From Oleomonas cavernae (GTDB taxonomy: Bacteria > Pseudomonadota > Alphaproteobacteria > Zavarziniales > Zavarziniaceae), in contig NZ_QYUK01000011.1 of NCBI RefSeq assembly GCF_003590945.1, positions 586,001 through 650,000 of the forward strand: a DNA stretch of 64,000 nt. The letters are read 5' to 3'. The notes under the pieces were generated by a model. That model searched no databases. It worked only from the letters and a program-made list of their open reading frames with translations, and had not been told where the DNA came from. Position numbers and translations under genes: made by a program. Shown piece by piece: positions 3,542 to 58,791 of this stretch (within the stretch, counting starts at the first letter, position 1; each line of letters begins with the position of its first letter).

Positions 3542-4366
3542 TCAGCGGTCGCGGAAACGCAGGCGTTCGAGCGTCGGCGCGACGCTGCTCCCCAAGCTGA
3601 TCTGGGGCAGGGACGGGACGAAATTCTCGGCTTGCTCGCGCCGTGAAACGCAAACGCGGGCAGCCTCCGCCAGGGCCGGGAAGTTGCCCGCGGCAGGGAG
3701 ATTCTGCAAGGTGCAGGCATCGAAATAGGGATACCGGTCATCTTCGCTGCAGCCAAACGACGACCGGTCGGCCCGCGCTGCGGCCACCACCAGGCGGTTG
3801 GGGGCCGATAGCGCGGGGAGGAAGACGCCCGAGTGACAGGCGGAGATGACGACCACGGTGGGGCGGCCGGCACAGGTTGAATCCAACAACTGCGCCATCG
3901 CCCACGGCGCGATCAGGTCGTGGCCCATCAGCACGCCGTCCTCGCTGCCATGGGAGGTGATGTAGACCAGGCAACCCTCGCCGGCCCGGGTCAACAGGCG
4001 GCCGAGGGTCGAGGCGACGTCACCGAAACGGCTGGCTTCCGCGACAGGATCCGGTCCCGGGCCGGCTGAGAACTGGCGGATATTGGCGGGCGAGAAACCG
4101 GCCCGCACGAAGGCTGCGCTCAGGTCGCGCCGGGCATTGTCGAAGGTCGCGCTGGGCACGCCTTCGCCCGACCGCCAGTCGCCGGCGACCACCACCGCGG
4201 CCCAGTTGGCAAAGCCGGCGGCGTTGCCCGGCGCCGGCGGCGGGACGGGTGCTGCCGGGGCCGCGATTGGCGTCGGCAAGGCACCCGACGCCTTCTGGCC
4301 ATCGGCAGCACAGCCCGCCAGCATCAGCAGGCCAAGCAGAACCGGGGCAACGCGCCAAGACCGCAT
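3542..4366 (-). CDS. Caspase-like lipoprotein, peptidase C13 family
   Basis: The 274-residue protein begins with a lipoprotein signal (LLMLAGC, lipidated Cys19), then a Pro/Ala linker, then a C13-type caspase-fold domain (about residues 53-230). The catalytic dyad is visible: His139 in YITSHGSEDG and Cys177 in VISACHSGVF, each after a hydrophobic beta strand as in legumain-type peptidases. It should act in the periplasm, tethered to a membrane. The gene starts 9 bases before the stop of the GS-like gene in the same direction, so it may be the last gene of the polyamine set, or independent. Its substrate is unknown. Confidence 0.85.
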   Translation of the reverse strand: MRSWRVAPVLLGLLMLAGCAADGQKASGALPTPIAAPAAPVPPPAPGNAAGFANWAAVVVAGDWRSGEGVPSATFDNARRDLSAAFVRAGFSPANIRQFSAGPGPDPVAEASRFGDVASTLGRLLTRAGEGCLVYITSHGSEDGVLMGHDLIAPWAMAQLLDSTCAGRPTVVVISACHSGVFLPALSAPNRLVVAAARADRSSFGCSEDDRYPYFDACTLQNLPAAGNFPALAEAARVCVSRREQAENFVPSLPQISLGSSVAPTLERLRFRDR

Positions 4367-4375
4367 CTAACCTCC

Positions 4376-5755
4376 TCAGGCGTTACGCAGGTACCAGGTG
4401 TAGTCGAGTGCCGTCACCTGGGCGTTGAAGCGATCGAGTTCCGCCCGCTTGATCGCGGTGAAGACATCCGCGTAGCGGGCACCCAGATAGTCGCGCATCA
4501 GATCGGAGGCGGCAAACAGGTTGATGGCATCGTTCCACTGGGTCGGCAGGCGCTGTGCCGTTTCGGCATAGCCGTCCTTGATCACCATGGCCGGCGGCGT
4601 GAGCTGCCTGGTGATGCCATGATGGACACCGGCCAGCACCACCGCCGCTGCCAGATAGGGATTGGCATCGGCGCCGCAGACCCGGTGTTCGATATGCCGG
4701 CTCGAGGCCGGGCCGATCGGCACGCGCACGCTGACCGAGCGGTTGTTGACACCCCAGCACGGCGCGATCGGGGCGTAGGAACCCAGGCGGAAGCGGCGAT
4801 AGGAATTGGCGTTGGGGGCGAAGATCGCCGTGCCCGCTTCCATGGTCTCGATCAGGCCGGCGATGGCCTGTTGCATGATCGGCGGGCCGGCGGGCTCGAC
4901 GCTGGCAAAGATGTTCGTCCCCGCCGCGTCGTTCAGGCTCAGGTGCAGGTGCAGGCCCGAGCCGGTGCGGCCGGTGAAGGGCTTGGCCATGAAGGTGGCG
5001 ATCAGGCCGTGCTTCTGGGCCACGCCGCGGATGGTGCGCTTGAAGAAGATGGCATCGTCGATCGCCTTCATGGCATGGGGCTGGTGGCGCAGGGTGATCT
5101 CGAACTGGCCGGGCGCGAATTCGCTGATCGCGGTTTCGGCCGGCAAGCCTTGCGCATCGGCCGCCGCCTGCAACTCGGTCAGGAAGGCGCCGAATTCCTC
5201 CAGCGCGTTCAGCTCGTAGACCTGGGTGGTGACCAGCGGCCGGCCGGTCAGCGGCGAGGAGGCGAGCCTGATCATGCCGTCATCGCCCAGCTTGGGATCG
5301 ACGACATAGAATTCCAGTTCCGCCGCGACCACCGGGGTTGCGCCCAGCGCCTCGTAACGCTTGACGACACGGGCCAGGGCATGGCGCGGATCGGCTTCCT
5401 CGGGCCGGCCGTCGAGGTGATGGACGGTCAGGATCACCTGCGCCGTGCCGGCAAGCCAGGGCGCCCGCTTCAGCGTGCCGGGCACCGGGAAGGCGAGACG
5501 GTCGGCGTCGCCTTCCTCCCACACCAGGCCGGTCTCGTCGACATCGGCGCCGGTCACGTCCAGGCCTAAGATCGAGCAGGGCAGGGGGCGGCCGTTGACG
5601 TAGACCGAGGCGAGCTCGTGGGCGCGCACGGTCTTGCCGCGGGCAACGCCGCTGGTATCGGTCAAGACCAGTTGCACCGCCGTGATATCGGGATTGGCGG
5701 CCAGGAAGCGGGCGGCTTCGGCGCCGTCGGTGGCGGCGGGGTGGGGGGTGCTCAC
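4376..5755 (-). CDS. Glutamine synthetase family ligase (gamma-glutamylputrescine synthetase-like)
   Basis: This 459-residue protein is a type I glutamine synthetase fold enzyme of the PuuA/GlnT group. These ATP-dependent ligases join glutamate to an amine. The N-terminal beta-grasp domain is followed by the catalytic domain with the active-site motif NANSYRRF and the sequence IEHRVCGADANPY, typical of non-GlnA members. It lacks the adenylylation loop pattern of GlnA. Its start overlaps the aminotransferase stop by 4 bases, and a Pot-like transporter lies upstream, so gamma-glutamylation of putrescine or another polyamine is the likely first catabolic step. The exact amine is inferred from context only. 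Confidence 0.88.
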   Translation of the reverse strand: MSTPHPAATDGAEAARFLAANPDITAVQLVLTDTSGVARGKTVRAHELASVYVNGRPLPCSILGLDVTGADVDETGLVWEEGDADRLAFPVPGTLKRAPWLAGTAQVILTVHHLDGRPEEADPRHALARVVKRYEALGATPVVAAELEFYVVDPKLGDDGMIRLASSPLTGRPLVTTQVYELNALEEFGAFLTELQAAADAQGLPAETAISEFAPGQFEITLRHQPHAMKAIDDAIFFKRTIRGVAQKHGLIATFMAKPFTGRTGSGLHLHLSLNDAAGTNIFASVEPAGPPIMQQAIAGLIETMEAGTAIFAPNANSYRRFRLGSYAPIAPCWGVNNRSVSVRVPIGPASSRHIEHRVCGADANPYLAAAVVLAGVHHGITRQLTPPAMVIKDGYAETAQRLPTQWNDAINLFAASDLMRDYLGARYADVFTAIKRAELDRFNAQVTALDYTWYLRNA

Positions 5756-7131
5756 GATTCAACTCCGGAAATCAGGGCGTCGCAGGCGCCGGCGACGGTC
5801 GCGACCAGATGGTCGACATCGGCAATGGTGGTCGCGGGACAGGTCAGGGTCATGTTGTGGAACGGCGCGATCAGCACGCCGCGGTTCATCAGGTAGAGGT
5901 GAATAGCTGCTTCCAGCGGCCCGTGCATCGCCTTGGCCGCCTGCGTGCCGTTGCGCGGCGGGGTCGGGCCGCAGACGAATTCCGCGCGCGCCCCCACCGC
6001 CGAGACGTGCCAGGGCAGGCTGCGTACTTCGATGATCCGGCGCAGCCCCCGCTCCACGCCTTCGGACATCGCCAGCATCTGGGCATAGGCGGCCGGGGTC
6101 ATGACCTGTTCCAGGTTGGCCCGCAAGGCCCGCATCGCCAGCGCATTGGCCGACAAGGTGGTGCCCATGCCGGAATGGCCGGGGCCGGTCCTGGCGCGGG
6201 CCGCCTTCATCGCCTGGGCGACCGCCGCGGTGAAGCCCCAGACGGCGCAGGGCACGCCGCCGGCGATCGCCTTGCCGACCACGAAAAAATCGGGTTCGAG
6301 CCCGTGGGCGCGGGTCCAGCCGCCCGGCCCGGTCGAGATCGTGTGGGTCTCGTCGATCAGCAGCAGCGTACCGGTCGCCCGGGTCAGGCGGCGCACGCCG
6401 TCGAGGAAGCCCGCTTCCGGCAGGACCATGCCGATGTTGGTCAGCGCCGGTTCGGTGATGACGCAGGCGACATCGCGGTCCGCCAGCGCCGCTTCCAGCG
6501 CCTCGAGATCGTTGAATTCGACCACCTTGGCGACGGTCGCGATGTCCGTCACCTGGCCCAGCAGGCCGGGCCGGTGGATGGCGCCGCCGTCGGCATCCAG
6601 GCGCAGGAAGGTCTCGTCCACCGTGCCGTGATAGCAGCCGTTGAACACCAGGATCCTGGGCCGGCCGGTGATGGCCCGGGCCCAGCGCAGGGCAAAGCGG
6701 TTGGCATCGGTCGCGGTCGAGGCGACCTGCCAGAACGGCAGGCCGAAGCGCATGGCCAGCAGTTCGCCCACCGCCGGCGTATCCTCGGTCGGCAGCATAT
6801 AGGTCAGGCCATGGCCGCCTTGCTCGGCCAGGACCCTCAGGATCGGCTCGGGCGAATGCCCGAACATCGAGCCGGTGTCGCCCAGGCAGAAGTCGCGATA
6901 CCGGTTGCCGTCGACATCGGTCAGGCTGGCGCCCTGGGCCTTGGCCACGAACAGCGGGAAGGGCGTGCCCCAGTCGGTCATCCAGTGCAGCGGCACGCCG
7001 TCGGGGAAGTGCGCGCGGGATTTCTGGCCCAGGGCCGCCGACCTGGGGTGGGTGGCGACGAAGCGTTCGGTTTCCCGGGCCAGCACGGAATCGATGTGGC
7101 TGGACTTGATTCCGGCGACGAGGGCATCCAT
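5752..7131 (-). CDS. Class III aminotransferase (polyamine-cluster type)
   Basis: The 459-residue PLP enzyme belongs to fold type I, class III. DETHTISTGPGG carries the conserved Asp that contacts the PLP ring nitrogen, and FFVVGKAIAGG carries the Schiff-base Lys. The N-terminal part resembles glutamate-1-semialdehyde aminomutase-like enzymes. It is translationally coupled to the GS-like ligase (4-base overlap), which suggests a role in moving the amino group during polyamine or omega-amino acid breakdown. The gene is divergent from the kinase gene at 7253. Heme biosynthesis is an unlikely role because hemL is normally not in such a cluster. Confidence 0.87.
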   Translation of the reverse strand: MDALVAGIKSSHIDSVLARETERFVATHPRSAALGQKSRAHFPDGVPLHWMTDWGTPFPLFVAKAQGASLTDVDGNRYRDFCLGDTGSMFGHSPEPILRVLAEQGGHGLTYMLPTEDTPAVGELLAMRFGLPFWQVASTATDANRFALRWARAITGRPRILVFNGCYHGTVDETFLRLDADGGAIHRPGLLGQVTDIATVAKVVEFNDLEALEAALADRDVACVITEPALTNIGMVLPEAGFLDGVRRLTRATGTLLLIDETHTISTGPGGWTRAHGLEPDFFVVGKAIAGGVPCAVWGFTAAVAQAMKAARARTGPGHSGMGTTLSANALAMRALRANLEQVMTPAAYAQMLAMSEGVERGLRRIIEVRSLPWHVSAVGARAEFVCGPTPPRNGTQAAKAMHGPLEAAIHLYLMNRGVLIAPFHNMTLTCPATTIADVDHLVATVAGACDALISGVES

Positions 7132-14552: not shown

Positions 14553-15428
14553 ATGTCCTTCCGAAAGCTTCTGGTTCCGGTCGAACGGCCGAAGACAGCC
14601 CGGACGGCCCTGCGCTATGCCTTGGAGCTGGCGCGGGAGTTGGACGCTCATGTCGAGGTCTTTCATCCCCAACTCGACCCGGCGATGGTTCTGCCGCCGG
14701 TTTTCGACGGCCTCTCGGGCATGGCCTACGCGCCCGAGTTGCTGGCCCAGGCACAAAAAAGTGCCGATGACCTTCATGCCGAGATCAAGGCCATGATCGA
14801 AGGCGAACTGGCCTCGCTCGGCTGCTCGGACATCGCGCGCGGCCACCGGGCTGGTTTCTCGATATCGTTCGAAACGGCGATCGGGCCGCCCGAGCGGCTG
14901 GTCGCGCGGCGGGGGCGGATCGCCGACGTGACGATCGTGGCCCGGGCACCCCACGGCAGCCGGGGCGAGACCGATTGCCTCGCCGGCGCCCTTTGGGCCA
15001 GTGCCCGGCCGGTCATCCTGGTGCCGGGCGCCGAAGACAGCTTTTCCGCCAACGGCAAGCGCCCGGAGCGTATCGTCGTCGCCTGGAACGGCAGCGCCGA
15101 AGCCTCGCGGGCGATCGCGGCGGCCCTGCCCATGCTGGTGCAGGCCGTGGCGGTCGAGATCCTGACCATCGACAACGCGGTCGACCGCGAGGCGCTGGAC
15201 CGGGTTCGCGACTATTTCCTGACCCACGGCATCGAGGTGACGGGCAAGAGTGTCGCCTCGAACGGCGAGACCTTGGCCAAGGTCCTGCTCGACCGCGTGG
15301 TGGAGCGCGAGGCCGACATGATCGTGATGGGCGCCTACACCCACAGCCGGCTGCGCGAATACCTGCTGGGCGGCCTGACCCAACAGGTGATGGACGGCGC
15401 CCCGGTACCGGTACTGCTGGCGCACTAG
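14553..15428 (+). CDS. Tandem universal stress protein (UspA family)
   Basis: The 291-residue protein contains two USP modules, about residues 1-155 and 170-291. The second ends with VMGAYTHSRLREYLLGG, the usual USP beta-strand and ATP-loop region. Start ATG has AAGGAGA 7 bases upstream. USPs with two domains often belong to low-oxygen or stress regulons, and this one sits 89 bases after an FNR-type gene in the same direction. The last 44 bases of this gene are repeated almost exactly at 16225-16268, on the far side of a toxin-antitoxin module. Confidence 0.9.
   Translation: MSFRKLLVPVERPKTARTALRYALELARELDAHVEVFHPQLDPAMVLPPVFDGLSGMAYAPELLAQAQKSADDLHAEIKAMIEGELASLGCSDIARGHRAGFSISFETAIGPPERLVARRGRIADVTIVARAPHGSRGETDCLAGALWASARPVILVPGAEDSFSANGKRPERIVVAWNGSAEASRAIAAALPMLVQAVAVEILTIDNAVDREALDRVRDYFLTHGIEVTGKSVASNGETLAKVLLDRVVEREADMIVMGAYTHSRLREYLLGGLTQQVMDGAPVPVLLAH
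15385..15428 (+). repeat. Left copy of 44-bp direct repeat (3' end of usp gene)
   Basis: This 44-base segment encodes the last residues of the USP protein and its stop. It matches 16225-16268 at 42 of 44 positions, in the same orientation, and together they bracket the TA module. Confidence 0.85.
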
Positions 15429-15478
15429 ACACGCACACGATCCGCAGGGTCGGGATTGATGAATCTTGCGAAATATGC

Positions 15479-15504
15479 GAATAATTCTCCTATTGAGAAT
15501 ATTC
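15479..15504. promoter_or_regulatory. Putative TA operator (inverted repeat)
   Basis: GAATAATTCTC and GAGAATATTC form an imperfect inverted repeat 17 bases before the antitoxin start in a locally AT-rich patch. Antitoxins of this kind usually bind such palindromes to repress their own operon. Confidence 0.5.
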
Positions 15505-15521
15505 ACCCCGCGAGTGACGCC

Positions 15522-15770
15522 ATGAAGACCTTTTCCACCGTCGACCTGCTGAAGGATCTGCGGACGGTCATTTTCGCCGCTGCCAAGAGCCCGGTCTCCA
15601 TCACGCAGTATCGCAAGCCGAGGTTCGTTCTGATGACGGTGGAAGATTACGAGCGGATCACCAATCGCGACCCCAGGAAAGCCTACGCGATCGAGGAGAC
15701 GCCCGACGAGTTGCGCGCTTTCATGCTTGGTGAAATCGACAAGGTTCTGGGCGACGACGATGCGCCATGA
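15522..15770 (+). CDS. Phd/YefM-type antitoxin
   Basis: The 82-residue protein matches the Phd/YefM pattern: an N-terminal beta-hairpin/helix DNA-binding part (STVDLLKDLRTVIFAAAKSP then VSITQYRKPRFVLMTVEDYE) and an acidic C-terminal tail that would wrap the toxin. The start at 15522 (MKTFST) fits the family N-terminus. A longer in-frame start at 15456 would place the operator inside the gene. It overlaps the toxin gene by 11 bases, which is typical for coupled antitoxin-toxin translation. GC content of the leader is lower than the neighbours, as expected for a mobile module. Confidence 0.8.
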   Translation: MKTFSTVDLLKDLRTVIFAAAKSPVSITQYRKPRFVLMTVEDYERITNRDPRKAYAIEETPDELRAFMLGEIDKVLGDDDAP

Positions 15771-16182
15771 GCTGCCGCGGGGCTCGGTCATCCGATACCC
15801 GTATCTCTGGCGCCGGCAGCGGACTCAAGGCGAGACGGAAGGACGCAAGGAGCGCCCGGTCTGCCTGGCCATTACCGGCGAACTGCGCGGTTCGACGGTC
15901 CTGATCCTGCTGCCAATTTCGGGCACGGCGCCATTGGCTGACCAGGTAACCCTGGAGATTCCTCAGTTGGAGCGTCGCCGCGCCGGCCTCGATGAGACGA
16001 AGCCGGCCTGGATCACCATGTCGGAATACAACTTCGACATTGCTGAAGCCTCGTTCTATTTCGATCCGTCGAGCAAACCGATGGGGCAGTTCAGCGACGC
16101 ATTCCTCAAGCAGATCTACCGGTTGCTGCGGAAATACCTGGTCGATCCCAAGGCCCGTGTCGATCGCACACAAACAGATTGA
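15760..16182 (+). CDS. Putative PemK/MazF-like toxin
   Basis: The 140-residue protein starts at 15760 (MRHELPRGSV), inside the antitoxin gene. GSVIRYPYLWRRQ followed by GRKERPVCLAI resembles the first strands of the MazF/PemK SH3-like barrel (G-x-V-x-x-x-x and R-P-V patterns), and TVLILLPISG resembles the second half. The region EYNFDIAEASFY and the helical C-terminal FLKQIYRLLRKYL are not typical of short MazF toxins, so this may be a diverged branch. If correct it would be a ribosome-independent mRNA endonuclease neutralised by the upstream antitoxin. Position and overlap support the toxin call more than sequence identity does. Confidence 0.65.
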   Translation: MRHELPRGSVIRYPYLWRRQRTQGETEGRKERPVCLAITGELRGSTVLILLPISGTAPLADQVTLEIPQLERRRAGLDETKPAWITMSEYNFDIAEASFYFDPSSKPMGQFSDAFLKQIYRLLRKYLVDPKARVDRTQTD

Positions 16183-16224
16183 TTGGCAAGTCTCCGCCTA
16201 CGGGCCGGCCTCAATTGCACCAGG

Positions 16225-16268
16225 AGGTGATGGACGGCGCCCCGGTGCCGGTGCTGCTGGCGCACTAG
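16225..16268 (+). repeat. Right copy of 44-bp direct repeat (usp 3' remnant)
   Basis: This segment repeats the last 44 bases of the usp gene, including the TAG stop, with two A-to-G differences. There is no open usp frame leading into it. The 840-base offset between copies spans exactly the TA module. Confidence 0.85.
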
Positions 16269-16318: not shown

Positions 16319-17197
16319 TCACAGGTGGCGGCGCTGGCGATACTGCTGGGGGGTCTCGCCCAGGTGGCGTTTGAAGACCAGTGAGAAATGGCTCTGGCTG
16401 GCAAAGCCGATCTGGTCCGCGAGTTCGGCCAGTTGCACGCTGGTGGATTGCAACAATACGCAGGCCCGGTCGACCCGCGCCCTGGTGATGAAGGCATGGG
16501 GGGTCATGCCGAATTCCGACTTGAAGAAGCGGAACACATAGGACGGGCTGACGTCGAACAGCCGGGCGATCTCGTCGACCTCGATCGAGCGTTCTATGTT
16601 TTTCTCGATGAATTCCAGCAGGGCGGCCTTGCGGAACGACTGCCGGCCGCTGGAGGGCTGCACGGCTGGCGACTGGCGCAACGCCTTCACCTCGAGGTGA
16701 CTGCACAGGGCGTCGGCCAGGGCCCTGATGTGGTTGGGGCTCAGGCCATCGCCCGTGCGTTCCAGTTCGTTCGCCACGGCAAGGCCCAGCGCAAGCGACA
16801 GTGGGTCTGCGACGGCGAATTGCAACTCGTCGATGAACACAGCCGGTGCCATCAGCGCGCGCGCCGGCCCGGAAGGAATGAACTGCACGGTCAGCAGATC
16901 GAGTTCGCCGTTGATCTGCCAGGCGATGCGGCGGCCTGCCGGGATGAACTGGGTGGAGCCCGGCGCGGCATCGCGCTCCGACCAGCGGTCGCCCACCCGG
17001 TACCGGGTGCCGGCCTTGCCGCCCAGCAGCACGGCGACAGCGCAATGCGCCAGGGGGGCCATGTCGAAAATGCCGACGTGCTTGCGCCAATGGCCGAGCA
17101 TCGCGGGGCGGTCACCGTCGATCACATAGCGCGCGACGGGCTCGGTCGACAGGGCGTGACGGACATAATCGAAATCGCGCTGAAACAGCTCCAGCAT
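16319..17197 (-). CDS. AraC-family transcription regulator
   Basis: The 292-residue protein has an N-terminal cupin-like sensing region (about 1-170) and a C-terminal double HTH domain (about 190-288). The second HTH is QLAELADQIGFASQSHFSLVFKRHLG in outline, with the classic F-S-x-x-F-K-R ending. The start at 17197 (MLELFQ) follows GGGGGAAGG; GTG 17209 is possible. It is divergent from the DUF1329/DUF1302 genes across a 364-base gap and is the obvious candidate regulator of that pair. The ligand is unknown; such pairs respond to lipids or aromatics in other bacteria. Confidence 0.88.
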   Translation of the reverse strand: MLELFQRDFDYVRHALSTEPVARYVIDGDRPAMLGHWRKHVGIFDMAPLAHCAVAVLLGGKAGTRYRVGDRWSERDAAPGSTQFIPAGRRIAWQINGELDLLTVQFIPSGPARALMAPAVFIDELQFAVADPLSLALGLAVANELERTGDGLSPNHIRALADALCSHLEVKALRQSPAVQPSSGRQSFRKAALLEFIEKNIERSIEVDEIARLFDVSPSYVFRFFKSEFGMTPHAFITRARVDRACVLLQSTSVQLAELADQIGFASQSHFSLVFKRHLGETPQQYRQRRHL

Positions 17198-17561
17198 GCC
17201 TTCCCCCACTTGGTGAGCGATCTTTCGTGCCGCCCGTTACCCGCACGGTAGGGGAACGCGACAGAAATATGAAAAACTTAGTTCAGCCCTGTGAGAGATT
17301 CTGAACCATTCCGGCTGCTATTCCTCCATCCCGAGTGGTTCGCGGAGGAGAGACACGCTCGCACGGAGCCAACGCATTGCGCTGCGTCGGCTCAGGGGAG
17401 CGCTTTTGCCTGAGGGCAGAAAAGTAACATTACAAGTATCAATCGGCCGTTCGCGCGGAATGGCCGCTGTCATGGCATGTGTTTCTTGCCAGGGCGAAGC
17501 TTTGCCCGAAGTCGTCCGGGCCATAAAAACGGCTGTCAGAAAAACGGTTGGGGGATTGGAG
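17198..17561. other. Divergent intergenic region, AraC/DUF1329
   Basis: This 364-base gap has no convincing gene. It includes an AT-richer stretch (about 17255-17310) near the araC start and another (about 17415-17445) upstream of the DUF1329 gene, where the promoters probably lie. A start near 17406 would extend the DUF1329 frame but adds a non-signal N-terminus and was not accepted. Confidence 0.5.
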
Positions 17562-57409: not shown

Positions 57410-57520
57410 TCAGTCCTGGTGCGCGTCGAAGAAGGCGAGCGTCCGTTCCAGTGCCAGCTTGCTGGCGGCGGCGTCGAAATTGGCCCGGCGCAGACTGAAG
57501 CCGTGGTCAGCGTCAAGTTG
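57410..57520 (-). pseudogene. Remnant 3' end of a second dienelactone hydrolase gene
   Basis: About 110 bases read on the minus strand match the 3' end of the intact gene at 58111-58791. The stop is at 57410-57412. Substitutions and a three-base gap separate it from the parent (DADHGFS-like reading lost; ARANFDAAASKLALERTLAF kept in part). Similarity fades beyond about 57520. It is therefore an old duplicated fragment, not a gene. It may mark an ancestral tandem duplication reduced by deletion. Confidence 0.8.
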
Positions 57521-57679
57521 ACGCGCGATCCTGGTTGCGACAATGCCCGCCGTTGCAAGGGCGGGCGGATCGGCCTGTACTCGTCCACAGGGCCAAGCGC
57601 GCGACCCATGTATCAGCGTCAGTCCATTCCAGATATTCGGCCAAGACCGGCGCTGGCGCGACCTGAAAGGACCGTGTGG

Positions 57680-58093
57680 ATGCTCGCCCAGATCCTAGTA
57701 GCCGTCAGTGCTGGCATTCTCCTGGCGCTCGGCATTGGTCACCTGTTTCTGACCTTTGTCGGCCCGAAGCTGATGCCACGGGATCGGTCGCTTCGTGCGG
57801 CCATGACCGGCGTGCCGCTGGTGATCTCGCGGCAGACCGACATGTGGCGGGCCTGGATCGGCTTCAATGCCACCCACAGTATTGCGCTGATCCTGTTCGG
57901 CCTCGTCTACGGCCACCTGGCCATCACGCGCGCCGGCCTGCTCTTCGATGACCCCGTGCTGCTGGTCGTCGGCTTTGCTACCCTGGCCGGGCTGCTGGTG
58001 CTTGCGCGGCTCTATTTTTTCGCCGGCCCGGTGCTCGGCGTCTCAATCGCGCTGGGCTGCTACCTGGCCGGCATCGCCGTCAACTGGTCGTAG
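57680..58093 (+). CDS. Hypothetical four-span membrane protein
   Basis: The 137-residue protein starts at 57680 (MLAQILVAVSAGILLALG) with AAAGGA 9 bases upstream and has four hydrophobic spans (about 4-24, 58-78, 87-108, 113-133). LMPRDRSLRAAMTGVPLVIS and AWIGFNATHSIALILFG resemble a family of small uncharacterised membrane proteins. No ligand or catalytic motif is visible. It lies between the hydrolase remnant and the intact hydrolase gene. Confidence 0.72.
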   Translation: MLAQILVAVSAGILLALGIGHLFLTFVGPKLMPRDRSLRAAMTGVPLVISRQTDMWRAWIGFNATHSIALILFGLVYGHLAITRAGLLFDDPVLLVVGFATLAGLLVLARLYFFAGPVLGVSIALGCYLAGIAVNWS

Positions 58094-58110
58094 CCGGGCC
58101 TGAACCCCGG

Positions 58111-58791
58111 TCAGTCCAGGTGCGCGTCGAAGAAGGCGAGCGTCCGTTCCAGCGCCAGCTTGCTGGCGGCGGCGTCGAAATTGGCCCGGCGGTCGGAACT
58201 GAAGCCGTGGTCGGCGTCGTAGAGATGGATCGCGACTTCCGGGTGCTTCTCGGCCAGAAACTCGATCCTGTCTTCGGGCGTGGAAGCGTCCTTCGAGCCG
58301 AAGTGCAGCATGGTGGGGCATTTCGGCGCCAGTTCGACGAAGTTCAGGATCGCCGTGCCGTAGTAGCCCACGGCGCAATCGAGCCGCGGCACCTTGGCCG
58401 CCGCCAGCCAGGCGATGGCGCCGCCAAAGCAGTAGCCGACGATGCCCACCGGCTCCTGGCCGGTGCCGCGCCGCAGATGGCCCGCGCAGGCGGTGACATC
58501 CAGCATCGGTGCCTCCCAGCCGATCTCCTCGCGCAGGGCGCGGCCCTTGGCGACGCCGTCGGCATCATAGGGCAGGTCGGCCTGCGGCAGGGCGCGGTCG
58601 TAGAGCTGGGGGGCCACGACCTCATAGCCTTGCGCGGCATAGCGCTGGCACAGGTCGCGGATGTGGGCGTTGACCCCGAAAATCTCCATGGCGACGATGA
58701 TGCCGCCGCGCGGGGTGCCGCCGGGCATGATGTGCCAGGCCTGGAACTTGTGGCCGTCGGCGGCCTCGAGCGTGATCCATTCGCCGCTCAT
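58111..58791 (-). CDS. Dienelactone hydrolase family protein
   Basis: The 226-residue alpha/beta hydrolase has the nucleophile Cys in GIVGYCFGGAIAW, an Asp in LAEKHPEVAIHLYDADHGF and the His in the same motif. Family members hydrolyse dienelactone in chloroaromatic degradation, but many act on other esters. The start at 58791 (MSGEWITL) overlaps the MaoC stop by 4 bases. A degraded copy of its 3' end is at 57410-57520. Confidence 0.9.
   Translation of the reverse strand: MSGEWITLEAADGHKFQAWHIMPGGTPRGGIIVAMEIFGVNAHIRDLCQRYAAQGYEVVAPQLYDRALPQADLPYDADGVAKGRALREEIGWEAPMLDVTACAGHLRRGTGQEPVGIVGYCFGGAIAWLAAAKVPRLDCAVGYYGTAILNFVELAPKCPTMLHFGSKDASTPEDRIEFLAEKHPEVAIHLYDADHGFSSDRRANFDAAASKLALERTLAFFDAHLD

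Follow-up and report, generated by a model that had tools for sequence, protein, structure and literature searches.

We focus here on a small toxin–antitoxin (TA) module that lies behind the gene of a universal stress protein (usp) in Oleomonas cavernae, in a stretch of 64,000 nt (contig NZ_QYUK01000011.1, positions 586,001 to 650,000) that we refer to as the window. The usp gene is intact and is followed by the module, by a second copy of its own 3′ end, and by a right flank of AraC, DUF1329 and DUF1302 genes (Table 1). A sequence-only reading of the window had described a repeat of 44 bases with 42 matches (15385-15428 and 16225-16268); this is confirmed, and the repeat extends to 49 nt, 45 of them identical, at a spacing of 840. 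The same reading had placed the TA module exactly between the two copies, and the 791 bp of cargo that they enclose (15429-16219) indeed hold two overlapping genes, one for an antitoxin and one for a toxin. The right copy stands in the usp reading frame, QEVMDGAPVPVLLAH followed by the stop, and the body of usp is absent upstream of it. A chance origin of the repeat was rejected, as the pair gives a self-BLAST E-value of 5e-11 in the 64-kb window and none of 3000 random genomic segments reached its score. Similarity beyond the 49 nt is not clearly above chance, with 112 of 2000 random segments equally good when the sequence after the stop is compared with that after the remnant. There is no third copy of the usp end in the window.

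Table 1. Coordinates of the usp locus, of the scars (a gene's intact 3′ end plus a displaced copy of it) and of related features. Plain coordinates refer to the window; L numbers are loci of the scan.
Feature	Location	Strand	Basis
Intact usp gene (universal stress protein, 291 aa); the final 49 bases form the left repeat	14553-15428	+	Open reading frame (ORF); Pfam PF00582, E 1.3e-17
Left repeat copy: functional usp 3′ end with stop	15380-15428	+	Direct-repeat comparison
Imperfect inverted repeat ahead of the antitoxin gene; likely operator of the module	15479-15504		Read by eye
Phd/YefM-type antitoxin gene, 82 aa	15522-15770	+	PF02604 and TIGR01552, both below cut-off
MazF-like toxin gene, 140 aa	15760-16182	+	Predicted structure, Foldseek, profile search
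Right repeat copy (scar): displaced 3′ end of usp, in frame and including the stop, but lacking the gene body	16220-16268	+	Direct-repeat comparison
AraC-type regulator gene, right flank	16319-17209	-	PF12833
Scar A: usp, Phd/MazF-like TA between copies	15380-15428 / 16220-16268		
Scar B: functional dienelactone hydrolase 3′ end	58111-58218	-	93.6% repeat; PF01738
Scar B: cargo, one gene of unknown family (57680-58093, + strand)	57515-58110		
Scar B: displaced dienelactone hydrolase 3′ end, with 3-nt deletion	57410-57514	-	Repeat scan
Scar C: M32 peptidase	L150		
Scar D: response regulator, TA paralogue between copies	L152		
Scar E: acyl-CoA dehydrogenase, ParE-type TA between copies	L336		
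Scar F: cobalamin adenosyltransferase, Sel1-repeat gene between copies	L154		
Scars G1 and G2: NAD kinase, two nested copies	L183		
Scar H: short coiled-coil-like ORF, ParE-type TA between copies	L327		
Leader-like repeats on Shinella plasmids	L464 562-987, 4650-5080, 7073-7501; L466 1285-1716, 4640-5069		

The two genes of the module form one operon, antitoxin first and toxin second, with an overlap of 11 bp. The antitoxin matches PF02604 weakly (E 1e-5; 25.6 bits, under the 29.8-bit cut-off) and TIGR01552 at 16.9 bits, again under the cut-off. No Pfam or NCBIfam family is assigned to the toxin protein. Its structure model has a pLDDT of 91.8, and in a Foldseek search with this model MazF supplies 11 of the 12 best matches, the best of them weak (E 0.0099, TM about 0.6 by target length); MazF also leads the profile search (E 0.044). 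Homologues of the toxin occur in 487 plasmid records, mostly from Rhizobiales and with 54-58% identity among the top ones, and in one phage record. In all four plasmid loci that were opened, a Phd-type antitoxin gene overlaps the toxin homologue in the same order. Because of these family matches, the plasmid homologues and the gene order shared with them, the cargo is predicted to be an addiction-type, Phd–MazF-like type II TA module of a kind common on plasmids. On Shinella plasmids, leader-like repeats of about 430 nt (84-96%) stand before several genes around the TA module, with one copy before a ParB gene.

The usp site was compared in five relatives of the genus (G001 to G005, with O. cavernae itself as G000). 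Each has one usp gene, at 60-66% protein identity, and the Crp gene upstream of it is common to all five. None of the five carries a TA module behind usp and none a second usp end (in G003 only 727 bp are readable; one 21-nt match at E 0.002). The sequence-only reading had looked to such relatives for an empty site with one copy, and named relatives without the module yet with both repeat copies as evidence against insertion. A single usp end is what all five show, which is the part of the expectation that stood; the downstream DNA, however, varies and never matches the right flank of the window, so that usp itself has no strict empty site. The gene after usp is of one type in G001, G002 and G003 and of another in G004 and G005. 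In none of the relatives does an AraC-type gene follow usp, and in G001 the AraC-DUF1329-DUF1302 group lies on another contig. Behind 78 usp homologues no comparable repeat of the usp end was found. As a separate observation, G002 holds a lone antitoxin gene with 78% DNA identity to that of the window and no recognizable toxin partner (L155, about 6127-6342; G002:C2:39105); nearby sequence reads like what we take to be the remnant of a serine recombinase.

The arrangement at usp is not unique in this genome. Direct repeats containing the 3′ end of a gene were sought around the five paralogues of the toxin that the genome holds, at 33 further TA-centered loci and in 40 evenly spaced 20-kb stretches, which amounts to about 1.3 of the 5.64 Mb of a genome that may be incomplete; the scan would miss repeats of less than about 28-36 nt and those with less than about 72% identity. 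The stretches read contain nine scars at eight genes, that is usp and eight further scars behind seven other genes, with repeats of 36-164 nt. The final list was made by hand from the scan outputs, with a 755-nt repeat in L176 left out; the simple gene caller overlooked usp itself in one pass and recovered it in the next. Scars occur at 6 of 39 TA-centered loci here against 0 of 30 in the relatives (p 0.027; 5 of 38 with the window excluded, p 0.048), and in 1 of 40 random stretches here against 0 of 20 in G002. Within this genome the excess at TA-centered loci over random stretches is borderline (p 0.05, or 0.09 without the window). Across the eight targets no common junction motif is seen by eye. 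The sequence-only reading had remarked that the module lacks an integrase; among the cargo proteins that were scanned, none matched a recombinase.

Several kinds of repeat were dropped on the way to this list, namely REP-like intergenic palindromes (window 37165-37276/41342-41453, L188, L172 and part of L183), tandem paralogues or partial duplications (L152 5000-5382, L166, L184, L187, L189, L195, L197, L199 and L339; L225 and L215 in the control G002) and a weak repeat pair in L205. Palindromic REP-like elements of the GTCATCCCGGCGAAGGCC type are frequent in the genome, the two window copies just named being examples, and another repeat, about 100 nt long, is present at dozens of sites. In L321 a 165-nt direct repeat (77%; 4200-4362 and 5513-5677) surrounds a 1.15-kb block with a weak Phd match.

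For three of the scars (C, E and F) the relatives do offer strict empty sites, and each time the displaced end has a foreign block on either side. At F, the stop leads directly to the leader of an electron transfer flavoprotein (ETF) gene in G001, G002, G004 and G005, while here 2.2 kb are inserted at the stop: a Sel1 gene, the displaced end and an alpha/beta hydrolase gene, then native sequence. The site of C is contiguous in G002 and G005, and here holds HTH_3 and DUF6678 genes, the displaced end and a Phd/toxin pair; HigBA as a name for the first of these blocks has been withdrawn in view of its families. At E, contiguous in G001 to G004 with gaps of about 55-170 bp, an ORF and a ParE-type TA module are followed by the displaced end and then by HipA and nucleotidyltransferase/HEPN genes. 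The outer joint carries no copy of the gene end in C and F and a weak one in E (6 of 3000 random segments); no native intergenic sequence was found at the block edges of these three sites. The M32 peptidase 3′ end appears to be a hotspot in its own right (L150, L452-L456), with three different inserts at the same joint in G001/G003, in G004 and in O. cavernae; the inserts of G001, G003 and G004 hold no convincing copies of the M32 end.

Two scars carry a further footprint. At E, 55 nt from the tail of block 1 are found again (94.5%) on the far side of HipA, close to where the nucleotidyltransferase gene begins. At H, the final 80 nt of block 1, which directly abut the displaced end, have a second copy (93.8%) 837 nt past that end; both blocks of H also hold a 62%-alike region, which covers the ParDE genes of block 1. 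Because the tails of block 1 recur beyond block 2, the order at E and H can be read as [gene end - TA - x][gene end′ - TA′ - x′], that is, as what appear to be two alleles of one locus in tandem. A similar order in G2 is made of REP-like repeats. No tail repeat of this kind was found in A, C, D, F and G1, and B has a weak 46-nt match. Three ParE-type TA modules also stand in a row in L329 (4581-6619; C11:1518338-1520073) at about 730-bp spacing, the first two behind a conserved leader (79%), and may represent another allele stack.

How the two copies of each gene end differ is informative as well. The 73 differences between intact and displaced ends fall on codon positions 1, 2 and 3 as 12, 20 and 41 (p 1e-4), and the third position is the commonest in eight of the nine scars; indels are 3 nt in B and 15 nt in F, and E has a frameshift. 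Against the five relatives, the displaced usp end matches at 34, 37, 37, 36 and 38 of 49 positions and the intact one at 32, 35, 35, 34 and 36, so that the displaced end is the nearer one in every case. The same holds for NAD kinase (62-63 of 75 displaced, 60-61 intact, in all five). From the third-position excess and the closeness of the displaced usp end to the relatives, it seems that the intact and displaced ends were both working alleles while they diverged. One codon is common to the two NAD kinase copies and absent from all five relatives, and the donor would therefore be closer than the sampled genus.

Outside the genus, a homologue of the toxin was found in 32 of 385 genomes of the class, and 32 homologue loci, 28 from the class search and 4 from the toxin-paralogue search, were scanned for repeats. 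One of them (L414 1135-2525, in G329) has a homologous TA module bounded exactly by an intact tRNA-Arg(CCT) on one side and the displaced 3′ half of that tRNA on the other; the repeat of 182 nt (79%) starts in the anticodon region and runs about 135 nt past the end of the tRNA. In L416 a 37-nt pair (84%) surrounds the TA homologue and was not matched to a gene end.

To account for the arrangement at usp, we propose, at about even chances, that a donor strand with a usp end and the TA module entered by homologous recombination on the usp side and by a non-homologous join on the other, so that the usp end of the recipient stayed behind as a scar. The window would then show where two alleles of a single variable site downstream of usp were joined. 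The donor would have come from a related but distinct lineage, and recombination within or upstream of usp would have kept the gene whole with the donor's last codons. The other end of the donor strand may have been joined to the resident usp with no usable homology, at a point 49 bases ahead of the stop, so that the resident end persists as a displaced scar; a TA module of the plasmid-common kind could favor the keeping of such recombinants and help to fix them. The usp side is continuous, and the other side joins cargo to a displaced gene end. Several points weigh against this proposal. No donor allele is known and no close strain; a clear tandem-allele footprint is limited to two of nine scars, with none at usp; and at E and F every relative compared is nearer to the intact copy, so that the displaced-nearer pattern is not general. 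Moreover, the displaced pieces are short (0.05-0.46 of the gene, p 6e-4 against a uniform expectation), which a random illegitimate joint would not give unless long repeats were lost. The tRNA case is the outcome that an integrase would give.

Such an integrase is the basis of a different explanation, in which an element with an attP resembling the usp end rebuilt usp and left attR as the right copy, its recombinase being lost or acting in trans as in cis-mobilizable elements (CIMEs). The sequence-only reading had likened the locus to integration at a gene end that rebuilds the gene, and of this the foreign module and the rebuilt end stand, given five relatives without the module and sister scars with strict empty sites; att integration by an integrase is not the best reading. 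The repeat architecture and the third-position divergence would fit it, as the usp module has direct repeats on both sides in the manner of attL and attR; the nested NAD kinase copies look like accretion, tRNA genes such as that of L414 are what integrases prefer, and the trace at the outer joint of E could be an older gene end. On the other hand, eight different targets in the stretches read would require many integrases, and block tails recurring beyond block 2 in E and H are not expected. With different targets, repeats of varying length, no shared motif or common att sequence seen by eye, no recombinase match among the scanned cargo proteins and no outer copy at two of three testable loci, the joining of two alleles fits better, and we consider integrase insertion unlikely.

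The copies might instead have arisen in place, if a break took up a DNA fragment and the gene end was then copied to both sides of it by fill-in or template switching, like a long target-site duplication. Direct repeats of variable length at arbitrary genes with no motif would be expected from this, yet fresh copies should decay randomly, and the preference for third positions disfavors such decay; nor should the displaced copy be nearer to the relatives than the working one, as it is at usp and NAD kinase. We regard this origin as improbable. It is very improbable that the right copy comes from an old tandem paralogue of usp that kept its tail and lost its body, either by deletion or by replacement with the TA module. 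The genome does have a further usp-like match, and tandem partial gene duplications occur in the genus (L225), but that match is 32% identical against 92% for the tail, none of the five relatives has a tandem usp, and the other seven genes would be left unexplained.

Known systems resemble parts of the proposed allele joining. Prophage e14 and phage 21 at icd bring a gene end of their own that takes the place of the native one; the native end is displaced, and the differences are mainly silent. They differ from the usp-type scars in carrying an integrase and using one fixed site. Homology-facilitated illegitimate recombination (HFIR) is recognized by homology to the resident chromosome on one side only and by 3-10 bp of microhomology at the illegitimate joint. 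According to PMC3240628, it adds about 1 kb of cargo, but is rare and usually deletes resident DNA, which counts against our proposal; it has also been described from experiments, in which a deletion of similar size usually accompanies it, whereas the present case rests on recurring gene-end scars in one genome. CIMEs (1.2-13 kb in the classical form, 130-220 bp as microCIMEs) likewise stack small cargo without recombination genes behind a gene 3′ end between direct repeats, but keep the att sites of one integrase family at few targets, according to PMC7563491. The usp-type scars, in contrast, sit at different genes with no common site and lack the outer repeat at two of the three testable loci. 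No integrative and conjugative or integrative and mobilizable element was seen in the stretches read, and no search for related ones was made. In architecture, the orphan rhs-CT/rhsI modules come closest to stacked toxin units that start with a displaced piece of a gene. According to PMC3967940, their toxin/immunity units stand in a row, and the older one begins with a displaced fragment of the gene that they share. In those modules the toxin belongs to the target gene itself, and a new toxin end comes with the fragment, whereas at the usp-type scars the target is a housekeeping or stress gene unrelated to the toxin, and the TA module forms a free operon behind it.

In the literature, no description of TA modules flanked by displaced gene ends was found by title or abstract, which is not proof of absence. 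How small chromosomal TA modules without a mobility gene reach their sites is an open question. We tentatively suggest, at somewhat less than even chances, that they spread by allele stacking, in which, at variable sites that follow conserved genes, an incoming gene end with its TA module is joined ahead of the resident allele, which is not replaced. Competing TA modules would then accumulate, each joint marked by a displaced gene end, and the scars would be a datable record of how TA modules arrive in chromosomes without recombinases. If displaced ends do mark such joints, this route may be read from genomes by scar counts, by dating from codon positions and by the over-representation of TA modules.
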